Source: Ascidia mentula
Lineage: Eukaryota > Chordata > Ascidiacea > Phlebobranchia > Ascidiidae
Length of the DNA: 64,000 bases
Assembly (NCBI GenBank): GCA_947561715.1
Contig: OX387200.1
Coordinates: forward strand, 6,512,501-6,576,500
Reading direction: 5' to 3'
The position numbers and the translations under genes are program-made. The notes beneath the pieces were generated by a model, which saw only the letters and a program-made list of their open reading frames with translations, was not told where the DNA came from and did not search any database. Positions 13,978 to 28,836 of this stretch are shown piece by piece (the stretch's first letter is position 1; every line of letters begins with the position of its first letter).

Positions 13978-15640
13978 TTACGTGTGGTGATGAAGATAAC
14001 AGAGTATCAATTTTTGCTCAGATTTGTCTGACGTTGAGGAGTTCACTTGGTGAGAATCCACTAGCGTTTGGAGTACGTCTGTACTGCAGTAGAAACTCCT
14101 GCAATGCCTCTTTAGAGGTTTGGAATTCTTATTCATTGCCTTCTTAAACGTTGGAACCAATCTTTCCGCAGCGCCATTTGTTGCAGGAAAATATGGTGCT
14201 CCAGTCAAATGTAAAATGCCCCTTTGCTTACAAACTTCTTGAAAGTCAGCAGACATAAATGCTTGTGCATTATCCGACACAATAGTGTGTGGGTAGCCGA
14301 AATGAGCAAAATCTCTTTCTAGCGATTCCATAGTTGTTCTTAATGACATAAATTGCGTTTGATATACGCAAGGGTACTTTGAGTATGCATCGATCATCAG
14401 AAGCCAGTTACTTCCCAGAAAGTTAACTGCGTGATCGATATGTAATCGCCTCCATGGCTTTTCTGGCATCATATATGGATGAACTGCTGCCTTTGACGGA
14501 GCGTTTTGGTGTTAGGCAAAAGTTTTGCACTTATGACAAAGAACTGTAATGTCATCATCGATATTCGGCCAATAAATTGCAGTCCTCGCCAGCTGCTTCA
14601 TTCGCTGAATCCCAAAATTTCAAATATAAAAGATCTGCAGAACAGTAGAACGAAGTGATTCCGGTATGACTAACCGTGGCCCACATAAAAGACATCCATA
14701 ACTTGTACTCAACAATCCGCTACTTTGCGAAAATTGGCAACTGGGCCACTGTTTGCCAAAGAAGATGGCCAACCCTCTCTTGTAAATCACATGACCTTGG
14801 ATAAGACCGTATCTTTGCCAATTTCCTTTCGAAGTGATGCTGAATCGATGGGTTGCACTTGTAAAGTCAGACTGGTGATTGCACTAACTGTGTCGGAGTC
14901 CCGTGTACTATTCTCTTTGTCAAAGTCTTCATCTTCCCCAACCGGTAAATTACTAAGTGCGTCGGTATTCTGATGCTCCGATGTCTTCCTGTATTCAATC
15001 TCTTATTGAAAATGACGAAAAGTGCCCACAAAATGATTTTGACACGTTTGCAGTTGACCTCTTGCTTCCAGGATAGCGGTGAAACAGAACTGCTCCAATT
15101 CCAACGTTTGCTGCATCGCAGGAAATTGCAATAGGCGATGAAGGGTCGAAATGAGCCAGAACTGTGTCCGCTGACAACCATTCCTTTAATTTGCAATTTG
15201 CAAAATGCAGCATCCTTGTTCCTGGCCCAATTTATCGCAACATTTGACCTGGTAAGTCAGTACAAAGGTTCCGCATCAATTGCGAATTGCGATGGCAGGA
15301 ACTTGCTGTAGAACTGCACTGAACCAAGAAATTAACGTAGACTTGGCACACCTTCCGGTGGTGACATGTTGACAACCGCATCCAATTTTGAAACTTTGCA
15401 AATTCCCTCTTTGGACAAAATGTGCCCCAAGTATTCCACTTGTGGTAATGCAAATTTGCATTTCTCTATACGACAGCGTTAACCCTTGTCTTTGAGCCTT
15501 TGAAGAAGTTGATCCGCTGACCAATAGATCATCCAGATAGACGGTTACATATTGCAAATCTTTTGTATAATGTCGTCCATTATCGTTTGAATGTAGCCTG
15601 GAGCGGAGGTTATGCCAAGTGGAAAAACGTTTTGCGACTT
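13978..15640 (-). mobile_element. Degenerate Ty3/gypsy retrotransposon fragment (RT, RNase H, integrase)
   Basis: On the minus strand the order is reverse transcriptase, RNase H, integrase, which is the Ty3/gypsy order. At about 15640-15500 there is the end of the RT palm with the catalytic YLDD box, broken by a frameshift just before it. At about 15215-15000 an RNase H-like stretch has ISCDAANVGIGAVLFH. At 14472-14100 an integrase core keeps the three acidic residues in HIDHA, VSDNAQAF and NGAAER. Several frames and stops separate the parts, gag and protease are missing, and no LTRs were recognised, so it is a dead fragment. The left end of the RT piece is fused to cluster flank sequence (about 15640-15740 matches 965-1080). 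Confidence 0.8.
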
Positions 15641-16339
15641 ACCTTGTATTTTGCTTACTATTGCATAAATACGTTGTGGAAAAAGTTTCGTCGAAAAATG
15701 TAAAAATATGTTGGATATTCAGGATAATTTGTTCTGAAAGCAAAGCTTTTCAAAGTTTAATAATGATAGTTTATTTTATTAAAGTTTTCTGCAAATAAAA
15801 CAAACTAGGTGTATATATATATATACATATTATTCTGAAAATTAAGGCCAAAGCTAATATGCTATTGATCATATGAAGTAAACGTTTCGAACTCTTACTG
15901 GGTTCATCATCAGTACGACATTGTAGTAGGAAAAAGTGGCTGATCCAGCTAAGTTACAATGCCTGGGCTGCCAAGCCTACAAACCTAACAATAAAACATA
16001 CCTTACATCACAATACGTAAACGCTCAATGCGGCGACGAGATCTATGCTTCAATCGCGTTTCGCGTGCTCTTCACCCTCTGTCGTAGTCTTAATCTCTTG
16101 TTTGGTGTTGTTTACGGCCATCGATACATGTACGATTATAGAATTAATAAAATAGTAACATGGACAGGATTATTAAAAACGTCAATTTTATTATTTTACC
16201 AAAAGCCGATTTTCGAATATGACAGGAAGAAGCGAAGCGATTAACCCAGAGTACCATATACACATGTACGCGACGTAATTACAATTTGGGGCTAATGATA
16301 ACGAAGAATAACAATGAATAATAAATTGTGTATAAGCTG
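15641..16339. other. Mosaic of cluster flank, hammerhead-like repeat and cassette remnant
   Basis: 15641-15740 matches the flank of copy A (965-1080). There is a short (TA)n stretch near 15812. 15884-15913 carries a hammerhead-like core on the minus strand. 15936-15965 is the right end of the tRNA-like cassette (CTGATCCAGCTAAG, ATGCCTG). No exon is recognised. Confidence 0.5.
15884..15913 (-). ncRNA. Hammerhead-ribozyme-like core
   Basis: On the minus strand CTGATGA is followed by an 18-nt stretch that can form a 4-bp stem (GAAC/GUUC) and then GAAAC, which is the conserved hammerhead arrangement CUGANGA, stem II, GAAA. Stems I and III are not obvious, so this is probably a decayed copy. Confidence 0.45.
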
Positions 16340-16387
16340 CATACAGATGGTCACTGTTTCGAAATAAAAGGTCTCATCAGTGCAGCT
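16335..16387 (-). ncRNA. Type I hammerhead ribozyme, left arm
   Basis: Read on the minus strand: stem I strand AGCTGCA, CTGATGA, stem II, GAA, stem III ACAG/CTGT around a 7-nt loop (TGACCAT), then A as the cleavage nucleotide and TGCAGCT, which pairs perfectly with AGCTGCA over 7 bp. Only stem II is weak here (2 bp). Hammerhead rules (CUGANGA, GAAA, and a UH just before the cleavage site) are met. Predicted cleavage is after GUA. Confidence 0.7.
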
Positions 16388-16805
16388 GGTGTGACTATAA
16401 GACGACTTTGCTGACCAAACGGCCAAGCAAAGACTTACACATTGCGTATCATATGATTGTTGTGACACGGGGCCTGACGGCACTATTGGTTGAGCTTTGC
16501 TTGGCCATAGTGTTTCCACCTTATTTTCTCCGTTTTTTAGTTTGGTGCCCAAAGGATGACGGTGATTGTATAGTCACCACAAAGTGGACGTCTTTGCTTG
16601 GCCGTTTGGTCGGCAAAGTCGTCTTATAGTCACACCAGCTGCACTGATGAGACCTTTTAGGTCGAAACAGTGGCCATCTGTATGTCTCCACATTGCTTAT
16701 CATATGACTGTTGTGACACAGGGCCTGACGGCACTATTGGTTGAGCTTTGCTTGGCCATAGTGTTTCCACCTTGTTTTCTCCGCTCCACATTGCTTATCA
16801 TATGA
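16340..16805. repeat. Composite fold-back element with two hammerhead motifs
   Basis: The layout is exact: a 95-nt arm (16340-16434), a 95-nt direct repeat (16438-16532), a spacer, an inverted copy of the arm (16590-16684, four mismatches), a second direct repeat (16689-16783) and a short third start (16786-16805, CCACATTGCTTATCATATGA). Each arm carries one hammerhead core. No protein is encoded. It lies between the retrotransposon fragment and the next sulfotransferase gene. Confidence 0.8.
16637..16687 (+). ncRNA. Type I hammerhead ribozyme, right arm
   Basis: Same motif on the plus strand. CTGATGA (16644-16650) is followed by a perfect 5-bp stem II (GACCT/AGGTC), GAAAC at 16664-16668, and stem III ACAG/CTGT around TGGCCAT, then A. 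Stem I is shortened to about 3 bp (GCA/TGT). Together with the left arm it shows all three stems, so the ancestor was a complete ribozyme. Activity of each present copy is unknown. Confidence 0.65.
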
Positions 16806-17001: not shown

Positions 17002-18517
17002 ATGAAGATTATTGTTGCTGGATTGTCGAAAACAGGCACCAAGTCTATGAACGCAGCTTTAACAAAACTTGGATATAATGTGTACGACTTTTTGGAACAC
17101 GCTTACTGCCATAACAAGGAATGGAAGGAGATATTTGAAACAGGCGGAAACAATAAACTGTTTCAGAATATGTACAAGGACATAGATGTAGTCGTAGATA
17201 CCCCGGCGAACTTCTTCTGGGAACTAATCTACGAAGCATTTCCCGATGCCAAAGTACGAAAAAGTTAAAATTAGTAACAAATTACAATAAGTATACCCAA
17301 CTGATATTGCATGCACCATGCGGTAGAAAAGTCACGTAGGCATGTGTTCAGTCCGATGTGAAATTGTCTCTGTGCTTCAAAGCTAAGGTTTCCGTTATAA
17401 GTTGGTAAGATATGTTTGATTGAACTGGAATTATAATATTAACGCATTTCACGAAACGCAGTATTGGCGATCACAGCTATGGTATCTGTTCCTTAGGTTG
17501 TAGGCTTTACAGCGCAGGCATTGCAGTCTAGCTGGATCAGTCATCCTGGCCTGATTAGCCCAGGATCGTGAGTCCAAACCTCACCGGGACCTTGATATTT
17601 CAAACCTCGCTCCGGCTTGTCTGGAAAAATTGTCTGATCCAGCCGGGCTGCGAAGCCTGAAAACCTATTTCACGAAATATAATTATGCAGTGTTAAACCG
17701 AGACAATATGATATTCATATATGTTCAGATCATTTTGATGACACGAGATGAAGATGCGTGGCACAGCAGCGTTTTGCACCAAATACGCGAAATGAACGAA
17801 TGGTCTCTTTTCCGATTGGCGAGCATGATCACCCCAACAGGAAGATCATATTACAGTCACATGTCGAACGCCCGTAAAACATATAACTTATGTTTTAGTA
17901 TTTTGCTTTAAAAACTAACTGGTACTTATTGATTGTAGTTTTGGTGGGGTTTTCAATGCCTATAACTTCAGTCTTGAGAGACCTCAAATCCATTGAAAGA
18001 ATAATGCGACTCAAATTTCGACAACATAACTGTTACGTTCAACAAGTAAGTGTTACAATAAATATTCACCATGAATTTGCGGCATGCCCACAGCTGTATC
18101 TTGGCGCTAATAATTAAACACGAAAAAGTGCCTATAGCCCAAAAGTGGTTTAAAATGAAACGCAAGAATGTTTTTGCTTTCCATGTTATGGTCGTGGTGA
18201 TTTGTTCCCACAATCCCAATTAGTTTCGCTCACCTCGTAATCATTTTACTGAGTTCCCAGTCACTTGTATGTCGCAGAGAGCCCCAAAAGACAAACTTCT
18301 GGTGATGGACGTTAAGGACGGTTGGGAGCCGCTTTGCAAGTTCCTGGGTGCTAAAATACCCGACACTCCATTTCCGCACAAGAATATTGGGGGGAAAGCA
18401 TTCGAGGAAGCAGCAGAAAACCCAGCAATACTTCAAATAAGCCGAGAGCTTTATACGGTGTTTGCTTTGGCAACTGTTTTTTTATCCGCTGTCATGTTTT
18501 GGCTACTTCTGTGGTAG
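17002..18517 (+). CDS. Sulfotransferase-like protein, complete copy
   Basis: Four exons: 17002-17253, 17729-17873, 17939-18045 and 18278-18517, giving 247 aa without frame breaks. It has MKIIVAGLSKTGTKSMNAAL at the start, MTRDEDAWHSSVLHQIREM in exon 2 (Y-R of the relatives is H-S here, next to the conserved Ser of the 3'-phosphate site) and a C-terminal hydrophobic segment (FALATVFLSAVMFWLLLW). Exons 3-4 and the 3' flank are almost identical to copy A at 65-644, while exon 1 is closest to the 11239 copy, so the gene looks like a product of duplication or gene conversion within the cluster. Predicted membrane-anchored sulfotransferase of unknown substrate. Confidence 0.82.
17515..17659 (+). 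repeat. tRNA-like cassette with inverted ends, in intron 1
   Basis: It is a close relative of 8253-8398 at the same intron position and in the same orientation, with CAGGCATTGCAGTCTAGCTG at the left and CTGATCCAGCCGGGCTG near the right end, and the B-box-like GAGTCCAAACCTC inside. Confidence 0.6.
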
Positions 18518-19167
18518 GCTAGACTTTGAAATAGCATATAGGCGATGTTACGTTTAAATCAATTGAGCATGTGTTTTTGCCGCCGACTGCAAATAAAAAT
18601 CTAAAAATTGATAACTTATATGATGAAACTGTGACTTATTAATTTCGCCTTAACATTGTTTTATTTCGAAAGCGATAGAAAAGTCAAACATTATGTGGTA
18701 ATGGTTATTAATTTAGATCTCTGTAGTAATTTTAATTTATGTCGAAAACAATTCCTCCAACACTCACTTACATTGTCGCAATTGCCGGAAGCGTAAACCT
18801 CATGGAAGAGTTTCATATTTAATGTAGCCTAATGATGACCTGATCTTGTACTTTTGCTTACTATTGCAATAAAAAGATGTGGAAAAAGTTTCGTTGAACT
18901 TTTTCGAAGAATGTAATAATATGTTGAATATTCCGGATAATTTATTGTGCAAGCAGACTGAAATTTGATGGAATAACGTTTACTTTGCTTGTATCGTATA
19001 TTTGCTATTTAAAAATTACTCCGCAAAGTAGCCTACATACACGTTTCCTGGTTTAGAGAGTTTCTAAATACATTAATTCTCCAACCAAAGGACTTTTCAT
19101 GAAAATCTGTTTGTGTTTTTTGGCACCGATTGCTTGCTGCGAATGGCCACAAGAAAGTCCGGGCAGT

Positions 19168-19285
19168 ATTCGAACCTTTACAAAATTACAATATCAAATA
19201 GCCTGATGTCAACGCATTTATTTTCAAGAATACATGTTTCGCTAAATAAGCATCTTCAGTTCTAAAATGACAAGGATTCGAACCT
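19168..19285 (-). mobile_element. About 100-nt hammerhead-bearing insertion with target-site duplication
   Basis: ATTCGAACCT occurs at 19168-19177 and again at 19276-19285. In the duplicated flank it occurs once (about 1286-1295) with nothing inserted. The inserted 98 nt carry, on the minus strand, CTGAAGA, a short stem II and GAAAC. A related unit with its own different target duplication is at 28723-28823. Confidence 0.75.
19236..19259 (-). ncRNA. Hammerhead-ribozyme core inside the insertion
   Basis: The minus strand has CTGAAGA (19259-19253), a stem II of 3 bp (GCT/AGC) and GAAAC (19240-19236). The following sequence can form an imperfect stem III (AACATGTATT against AATAAATGCGTT) ending in GUU, an allowed cleavage triplet. 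Stem I is not clear. Confidence 0.55.
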
Positions 19286-19338
19286 GTACAACTTAAGTGC
19301 CACTTTTGTGAAAACGTCAGACTAAACACAATGATTTT

Positions 19339-19494
19339 AATTTAAAATAGACTGATCTTCTGGTATAAAATTAAACGTATAAACTACTGTCTTCTTCGGA
19401 TGTTTCGTCTGTCAAGCCGGGCAGTATGGCTAACGAAACATTGGAAGAATACAGTACGTTAATTGTATGCCACAAGATCAGTTTATTTTGAATT
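19339..19494. repeat. Second copy of the 156-nt fold-back repeat
   Basis: It is the counterpart of 1349-1504 in the duplicated flank, with the same length and arms and a few substitutions (for example CCACAAGATC for CCAGAAGATC). Confidence 0.65.
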
Positions 19495-19917
19495 GAAATA
19501 TAACTGGTAGCAATAGTAAAAGCTACAATACAATAATTTTATGTATTCTCTTTGTTTGTATATTTTTCGGGCTCCAGTTATCATAATATTCTTAGCATAA
19601 TACTCTTGAAAACAAGTGTTTGTAATTAATCATGTGTTGCCTTTTGTCAAGACTACAAAATATTGCTTCTACAACGTTAATTTGCCAAATTGTCGACGTT
19701 TAACATTGAGACACGAAAACAAAAATGATGGTTTTAGAAACACGTACCAAAGCGAGGATTCCTTTGCTAATTATAACGCAGTGTTTGAACTTAAAGCGCA
19801 CAGGATAAACTATATCTACCCAAGGAATAGAAAAATTATAGTACTGTTTTATGTTAAAATAATTTTTTTTGATGAATTCATCACAGGAAATTTTAATAGT
19901 AACACGAAAGGATTAAA

Positions 19918-28709: not shown

Positions 28710-28836
28710 ACAATTGTGGTATATATCATGAAGCAACAGGGCTCAGATTGAAGTCAGCAGATTTATTTGTAAAAAAATCGATTTCGCTTATGTAAGCATC
28801 GTCAGTTTCTTTTTCAAATAGAAACAATTGTGGTAT
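28710..28836 (-). mobile_element. About 100-nt hammerhead-bearing insertion with 13-nt target duplication
   Basis: ACAATTGTGGTAT is present at 28710-28722 and at 28824-28836. The 101 nt between are related to the insert at 19178-19275: both have an ATTTATTT stretch, then TTTCGCTTA or TTTCGCTAA, then AAGCATC, followed by the complement of CTGANGA. Confidence 0.7.
28782..28805 (-). ncRNA. Hammerhead-ribozyme core, perfect stem II
   Basis: The minus strand has CTGACGA (28805-28799), a perfect 5-bp stem II (GCTTA/TAAGC, loop CA) and GAAA (28785-28782). A possible stem III (GATTT/AAATC) follows; stem I is unclear. Confidence 0.6.

Follow-up and report, generated by a model that had tools for sequence, protein, structure and literature searches.

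What is the short hammerhead-bearing sequence that distinguishes two otherwise closely similar segments of the Ascidia mentula genome, and how did it get there? Within the 64,000-nucleotide stretch of DNA analysed here (the window), pairwise local alignment of positions 301–1651 with 18175–19733, both on the plus strand, gave 96.1% identity over 1,345 columns with a single 108-nt gap at 1297/19179. The aligned cut started at 301, and the similarity could extend further upstream. A preliminary description of this DNA had placed the duplicated flank at 645–1760 and 18518–19740; the duplication itself stands, but the local alignment stops at 1651/19733, before 1760. The gap consists of 98 nt (19178–19275) plus one additional ATTCGAACCT, in agreement with the same description: ATTCGAACCT flanks the extra sequence on both sides (19168–19177 and 19276–19285) and occurs once, at 1286–1295, in the other segment, where it marks the empty target site. 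On its sense (minus) strand the insertion reads CCTTGTCATTTTAG|AACTGAAGATG...GTAATTTTGTAA, and from the alignment, the family matches and the ends of related copies we assign it as a 5′-truncated solo pLTR of a Penelope-like element (PLE).

Two more paralogs of the segment, on the same contig (C67:6475k and 6483k), also lack the insertion, so that three of the four sites found are empty. These three are 98.1–99.9% identical to one another, while the occupied paralog is 95.0–95.4% identical to them. The target duplication in the window scored 13; none of its 13 cross-paired controls scored higher than 9. ATTCGAACCT resembles a B box, and a tRNA-like origin was considered for the duplicated sequence; this was rejected, as ATTCGAACCT is target sequence found in all four paralogs. 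The preliminary description had suggested a genome search for the 98-nt unit. From the 40 of 157 candidates that were scored, a 118-nt query has at least 50 matches in the 196-Mb genome, with some loci split into two pieces; the insertion belongs to a dispersed repeat. Together with the target duplication and the three empty paralogs, this supports the proposal that the insertion is later than the segmental duplication. A second sequence, of 92 nt (19548–19639), is present in the occupied paralog only and missing in the other three.

The extra sequence had been described as containing CTGAAGA...GAAAC, and this motif does lie within it, on the minus strand at 19236–19259. Based on the core and on comparison between copies, we predict a minimal type I hammerhead at 19220–19268 (minus strand), comprising CUGAAGA, a bulged U, stem II GCU/AGC, GAAA and, by eye, stem I AUUUU..AGAA / UUCU..AAAAU and stem III ACAUGU; cleavage, again read by eye, is predicted on the minus strand between 19231 and 19230. 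A 28–30-nt core pattern gave 29 exact matches in the genome and none when reversed. Over 61 family rows, which include segmental duplicates, the columns of the core CUGANGA...GAAA are at least 90% conserved, with the free position N7 at 70–80% and a variable loop II; a few rows, such as L014 and L074, have broken cores. Nine sequences chosen from several families show paired changes in stem II (GCU/AGC, GCC/GGC, GCCC/GGGC, GCUUU/AAAGC, GCUUA/UAAGC and GAAC/GUUC) and a palindromic stem III region (ACAUGU, AUAUAU, AUCGAU and ACGU). Rfam returned no hammerhead at the gathering threshold or up to E=10, and the hammerhead is absent from the lowest-energy fold of the 118-nt strand (z −0.76). The predicted ribozyme is thus supported by its core and by covariation among copies and families, not by formal Rfam membership. 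Because it is located in the terminal repeat, the ribozyme accompanies the copies.

Other hammerhead-like sequences are present in the window. An inverted pair at 16356–16380 (minus) and 16644–16668 (plus) has the appearance of canonical type I hammerheads, CTGATGAGACC...GAAAC, the minus-strand copy showing a stem I AGCTGCA/TGCAGCT by eye; two direct repeats of about 100 bp, also identified by eye, adjoin the pair. Similar motifs occur in L131 and L136, and this hammerhead family is distinct from that of the window insertion. An additional hammerhead-like core of the PLE type, CTGATGATGAAC...GTTCGAAAC, lies at 15884–15913 (minus).

To which kind of element does the repeat belong? One copy of the family, L099, contains an intact frame of 854 amino acids that matches the Pfam family RVT_1 (31.2 bits, cut-off 29.6, 2.3e-7) and scores just under the cut-off of 22.6 for GIY-YIG (20.3 bits, 7e-4), with GIY...YVGQT visible toward the C-terminal side, after the reverse transcriptase (RT). 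GIY-YIG scores below that cut-off were also obtained for L010 (21.6) and L011 (18.7), where inverted pLTRs surround pieces with weak GIY-YIG and RT matches. The pLTR match of L099 lies downstream of the frame only, with none upstream, and no internal repeats were found in this locus. Four further fragments had no RT or GIY-YIG match in Pfam. Direct-order pLTRs were seen in a related family only, at L131 (C52:9253000-9261500), a tandem array in which three hammerhead copies surround two frames of 953 amino acids and three acceptor-hammerhead stretches stand 3,493 bp apart; L131, L133, L134 and L135 were retrieved through 39–44% identity to the RT piece of L010. We conclude that the family of the window insertion is a Penelope-like element and that the hammerhead strand, minus in the window, is its sense strand. 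Many family matches are arranged as inverted pairs, which prompted us to consider a DNA transposon with long terminal inverted repeats; this was rejected on the evidence of the RT and GIY-YIG-like sequence, the unequal ends and the copies that carry a spliced leader (SL; see below).

The ends of the copies were compared across a table of 62 loci, made up of 28 inverted pairs and 34 others. The family has two alternative 3′ ends, one tailed and one untailed (‘tailless’, ...TTTTGCA), and all 28 inverted pairs were called as one of each. Setting aside L073, whose left arm is not a 3′ end, and counting the duplicates L043 and L050 once, this holds for 26 of 26 independent pairs; the probability by chance is about 1e-8 if ends are independent, on the basis of the 34 other loci (20 tailed, 14 untailed, duplicates included). 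In an Adineta vaga PLE, one inverted pLTR of the two is described as carrying a tail (PMC3846280), and a PLE protein extended both strands in vitro, starting at two adjacent internal sites, with the two strands alike (PMC11167929). Target duplications, which in PLEs measure about 8–15 bp, were surveyed across copies, as the preliminary description had also suggested. Scores of at least 8 were obtained for 21 of the 28 inverted pairs (300 permuted pairs: median 5, 95% at 7, maximum 10), but seven (L011, L014, L015, L071, L073, L079 and L090) had no convincing duplication. Among 14 single copies tested with controls, eight scored above all controls, counting L045, which did so by one only, and L075, by eye an inverted copy; the remaining six (L042, L054, L058, L066, L069 and L085) were unconvincing. 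The 5′ ends of target-duplicated singles differ and lie inside the ribozyme in L091 and L053, while those of L061 and L067 are at or near the SL. The window copy begins 14 nt upstream of a TTTTAG|AA acceptor and ends at the untailed 3′ end of the family. Movement of the ribozyme by itself, as a unit about 100 nt long, is not supported: the piece is the 3′-terminal part of a longer, RT-encoding family whose 5′ ends vary. At L053 and L070 (C69:19049k and 19095k), a part of the ribozyme, GATGCTTATTTAGCGAAACATGTATTCTT, is repeated in units of about 30 nt where a PLE copy with a target duplication has its 5′ end; RT slippage on the ribozyme may be the cause.

One class of copies starts with TATTTGAATAAG ahead of AACTGAAGATG, which leads to the spliced leader. 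The SL, ATTCTATTTGAATAAG, has 2,157 exact matches in the genome, compared with none for the reversed sequence, and is the same as the single 16-base SL reported for Ciona intestinalis (PMC7986045). In an SL gene array, four 720-bp units read SL|GTAAGC, with a GT donor. We searched for the SL followed by 0–30 bases and CTGANGATG, which is the 5′ half of the hammerhead core only. This gave 86 exact matches, with the SL 2–23 nt upstream of CTGANGATG, and none for the reversed control; the 86 include local duplicates and at least one match (L137) without a whole hammerhead following at that place. Unspliced acceptors precede hammerheads in L131 (ggcag|TTTTGG), L133 and L134 (tgcag|AAA), L135 (atag|ACA) and the window family (ttttag|AA), and their letter-identical spliced products number 19, 1, 6 and 5, respectively, or 31 of the 86. 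A further 25 junctions have the same spacer and differ at N7 or one base, which brings the total to 56 of 86 by spacer; these 25 may belong to other families. By the stricter measure, 55 of the 86 lacked a letter-identical unspliced partner among the loci examined. In L132 an acceptor-like tttttcag lies 38 nt above the hammerhead, beyond the reach of the pattern, and one match, SL|GGCAGTTTTGG, is off the AG seen in L131. The copies with SL|AACTGAAGATG locate a trans-splice acceptor in the window, ...TTTTAG|AA at 19261–19268 (minus strand), with its junction between 19262 and 19261, which would have been unused in the RNA that gave the window copy. Trans-splicing is read here from genomic copies, and the RNA junctions it predicts are SL|AACTGAAGATG, SL|AAACTGATGATG, SL|ACACTGATGATG and SL|TTTTGGTAAATGG.

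Target duplications were sought at 17 copies that start with the SL, an 18th, L085, being without SL at that threshold. Three exceeded all control draws (L112 with 14 bp, L061 with 15 and L124 with 11), L116 (10) equalled its highest control, and the other 13 were not outstanding. In L112, L116 and L124, two to five extra bases ending in G separate the presumed target duplication from the SL start; they may come from cap copying or be untemplated. Some of the scattered SL copies among L100–L129 (C1) run into GT (GTGGAG, GTGCGG, GTTATA), in contexts that recur, and may be SL-related repeats outside the main array.

To ask whether the SL copies of the window family share a single origin, we used trees of 51–53 short rows, with the segmental duplicates L049, L050, L051, L065, L070, L077 and L088 removed beforehand; inner branches are mostly weak and bootstraps unsettled. 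The six rows that depart from the SL at no more than one position called for six changes, three of them forced by starred branches, and a single clade was rejected (p 2e-29). Adding L068 and L069, labelled as SL rows by a two-mismatch rule and omitted from the stricter tree, again gave six changes, four of them forced, and a single clade was rejected at p 6e-11. As far as such short sequences can tell, these trees show that the SL copies are not one clade and would have had more than one origin.

The window itself holds a second retrocopy, of the SL type and another hammerhead family. At 28723–28824 (minus strand, 102 nt) a decayed SL, TTTCTATTTGAAAAAG, with two mismatches is joined to AAACTGACGATG... 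and a hammerhead. It is flanked by a 13-bp target duplication, ATACCACAATTGT, with one copy at the SL end (28824–28836), sharing one base with the element, and the other at 28710–28722. A double version is found at L140 (C52:4337480-4338060), where a pair of SL-hammerhead cDNAs face each other head to head, separated by a single base. The arms are identical for 71 bases, the left longer and the right shorter, and their 3′ ends differ; the outer ends carry a 13-bp repeat of TTGTTATAATTGT, scored without a shuffled control. L140 is the sole exact SL-SL head-to-head site at a gap of 0–6 bases, and by eye the joint of L015 also falls within SL sequence. Because 31 of the 86 SL junctions match products predicted from sense acceptors, SL copies of the window family do not form one clade and L140 is a double SL copy, a sense, trans-spliced PLE RNA appears to be the template for the SL copies.

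We consider it highly probable (roughly 0.9) that the 98 nt in the window are a dead-on-arrival copy of a Penelope-like element with a hammerhead, representing its 3′ end. This reading builds on what has been established: the insertion and its family, the RT and GIY-YIG-like protein, the empty sites, the target duplications, the two 3′ ends and the repeated SL junctions. In the mechanism that we propose, the element protein would nick the target and reverse transcription would begin at an internal position of the RNA, the ‘tailless’ site ...TTTTGCA. On an RNA without trans-splicing, synthesis of the window cDNA would have ended 14 nt upstream of the SL acceptor, and repair would have left the 10-bp duplication. 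Other copies would derive from RNA to which the SL had been trans-spliced at TTTTAG|AA, two bases ahead of the ribozyme core. Where both nicked strands prime, two cDNAs, one from the tailed and one from the tailless site, would be joined head to head to give the inverted copies. In itself, the insertion in the window is a truncated PLE copy of an ordinary kind.

Several other explanations were weighed against this one. That the paralogs without the insertion arose by precise deletion of the unit and one repeat has in its favour solely the two-repeat arrangement; we give it almost no credence, as three of four paralogs lack the unit exactly and the 98 nt are a dispersed repeat that is elsewhere inserted with different duplications. 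A ribozyme unit of about 100 nt, autonomous or retrozyme-like, that circularises and moves at fixed size would account for the hammerhead and for other short inserts of about this size, 102 nt long in the window and 103 nt in L061, and animal retrozymes are published (PMC7229834). The 5′ ends of target-duplicated copies nevertheless vary, some falling inside the ribozyme; complete head-to-tail dimers are absent from the 62-locus table, and what L053 and L070 repeat, about 30 nt, is partial; inverted pLTRs in L010 and L011 flank RT/GIY-YIG remains; and the short copies have as their constant 5′ end the SL, with which an mRNA starts. Such a unit is very improbable.

Two further alternatives concern the mechanism. 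Template jumping is known for retroelements, and the SL-hammerhead copies could have come from jumps of the RT onto SL RNA, or from SL-bearing DNA masters, instead of trans-spliced PLE mRNA. The 55 junctions without a letter-identical unspliced partner in the loci examined and the junction SL|GGCAGTTTTGG, off the AG of L131, point in this direction, but random jumps would not be expected to place 31 of 86 junctions exactly at AG acceptors of four families, and the SL copies of the window family are not one clade; we regard this origin as improbable. A somewhat stronger case can be made for the model put forward for Adineta vaga PLEs (PMC3846280), in which an antisense template is copied by self-priming to give the inverted copies. 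Palindromic junctions do occur here, for example the CGAAACATGTTTCG-like joint in L017. Against this, SL copies have the leader in sense orientation at an acceptor that is itself sense, L140 brings two complete SL ends together across a single base and has arms with different 3′ ends, and a tailed and an untailed arm are combined in 26 of 26 independent pairs of the window family. Self-priming is accordingly an unlikely source, and joining of two sense-templated cDNAs is preferred.

The acceptor lies 2–3 nt upstream of the ribozyme core in three families (the window family, L133/L134 and L135). It is conceivable, though doubtful, that the hammerhead and trans-splicing share the same few bases as a single processing switch. 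Read from the sequence, splicing would put the SL in place of stem I's outer strand, and the inner pairs would survive because the acceptor and the SL both end in AG. If such a switch existed, tandem PLE arrays such as L131 would read like operons; trans-splicing would provide capped mRNA and templates, while unspliced RNA would retain the original ribozyme.

How does this family compare with known systems? PLEs with GIY-YIG, such as Penelope of Adineta vaga (PMC3846280) and Poseidon PAc of Anolis (PMC11167929), share an ORF with RT, followed here by the GIY-YIG-like match under the cut-off, as well as pLTRs, head-to-head inverted pLTRs with an optional tail on one, palindromic junctions and target duplications of 8–10 bp; PAc also has a hammerhead close to its ORF start. 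Unlike these, the present family has SL-tagged copies, which indicate RNA trans-spliced just ahead of the hammerhead; a word search of PMC3846280 found neither ‘spliced leader’ nor ‘trans-splic’. Hammerheads in PLEs are already published (PMC11167929 and PMC7229834, citing Cervera and De la Pena 2014), and these minimal type I ribozymes, as described in the citing papers, have the same form and the same position in the terminal repeat, whereas here the ribozyme is directly behind an SL acceptor. The hammerhead was not required for PLE insertion in vitro (PMC11167929). In Anolis PAc, it is described as including the start codon of the ORF; an ATG within the hammerhead was considered as a start codon here too and rejected, as in L131 it is followed by an immediate stop (ATGCCGTTTTAG). 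Animal non-LTR retrozymes (PMC7229834) similarly are short, mobile and non-coding DNA with a type I hammerhead, but as described there they differ from the present copies, which are tied to an RT-encoding PLE family and include no whole head-to-tail dimers in 62 loci. In place of the tandem fixed unit of about 150–450 bp with a canonical type I hammerhead that defines a retrozyme, we found copies that are single or inverted and whose 5′ ends vary, in the loci compared.

Genomic SL copies that record trans-spliced RNA are likewise known from dinoflagellate retrogenes (PMC12014239) and from SL-containing retrotransposons of Schistosoma mansoni (PMC5832876). The latter report covers six transposable elements with a tentative reading; here, there are 86 exact junctions, 31 of them at the acceptors of four PLE families with hammerheads. 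A literature search, with subscription papers mostly outside its reach, found no published SL-hammerhead, SL-Penelope or SL-tagged PLE copies, and within that literature both the connection of the hammerhead with SL trans-splicing and the reading of SL-tagged copies as template records appear to be new. The copying of PLEs is poorly known, and for Adineta vaga an antisense template was proposed and favoured, with a sense transcript left possible (PMC3846280). If the SL copies are read as above, they indicate that a sense, capped, trans-spliced RNA could serve as a PLE template, and L140 and the 26 tailed/untailed pairs suggest that inverted PLEs are two joined cDNAs. The same signature can be searched for in any species that has both an SL and PLEs. 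The window contains one more retroelement-like sequence, an ORF at 13978–14472 (minus strand) that by eye resembles a retroelement integrase core.
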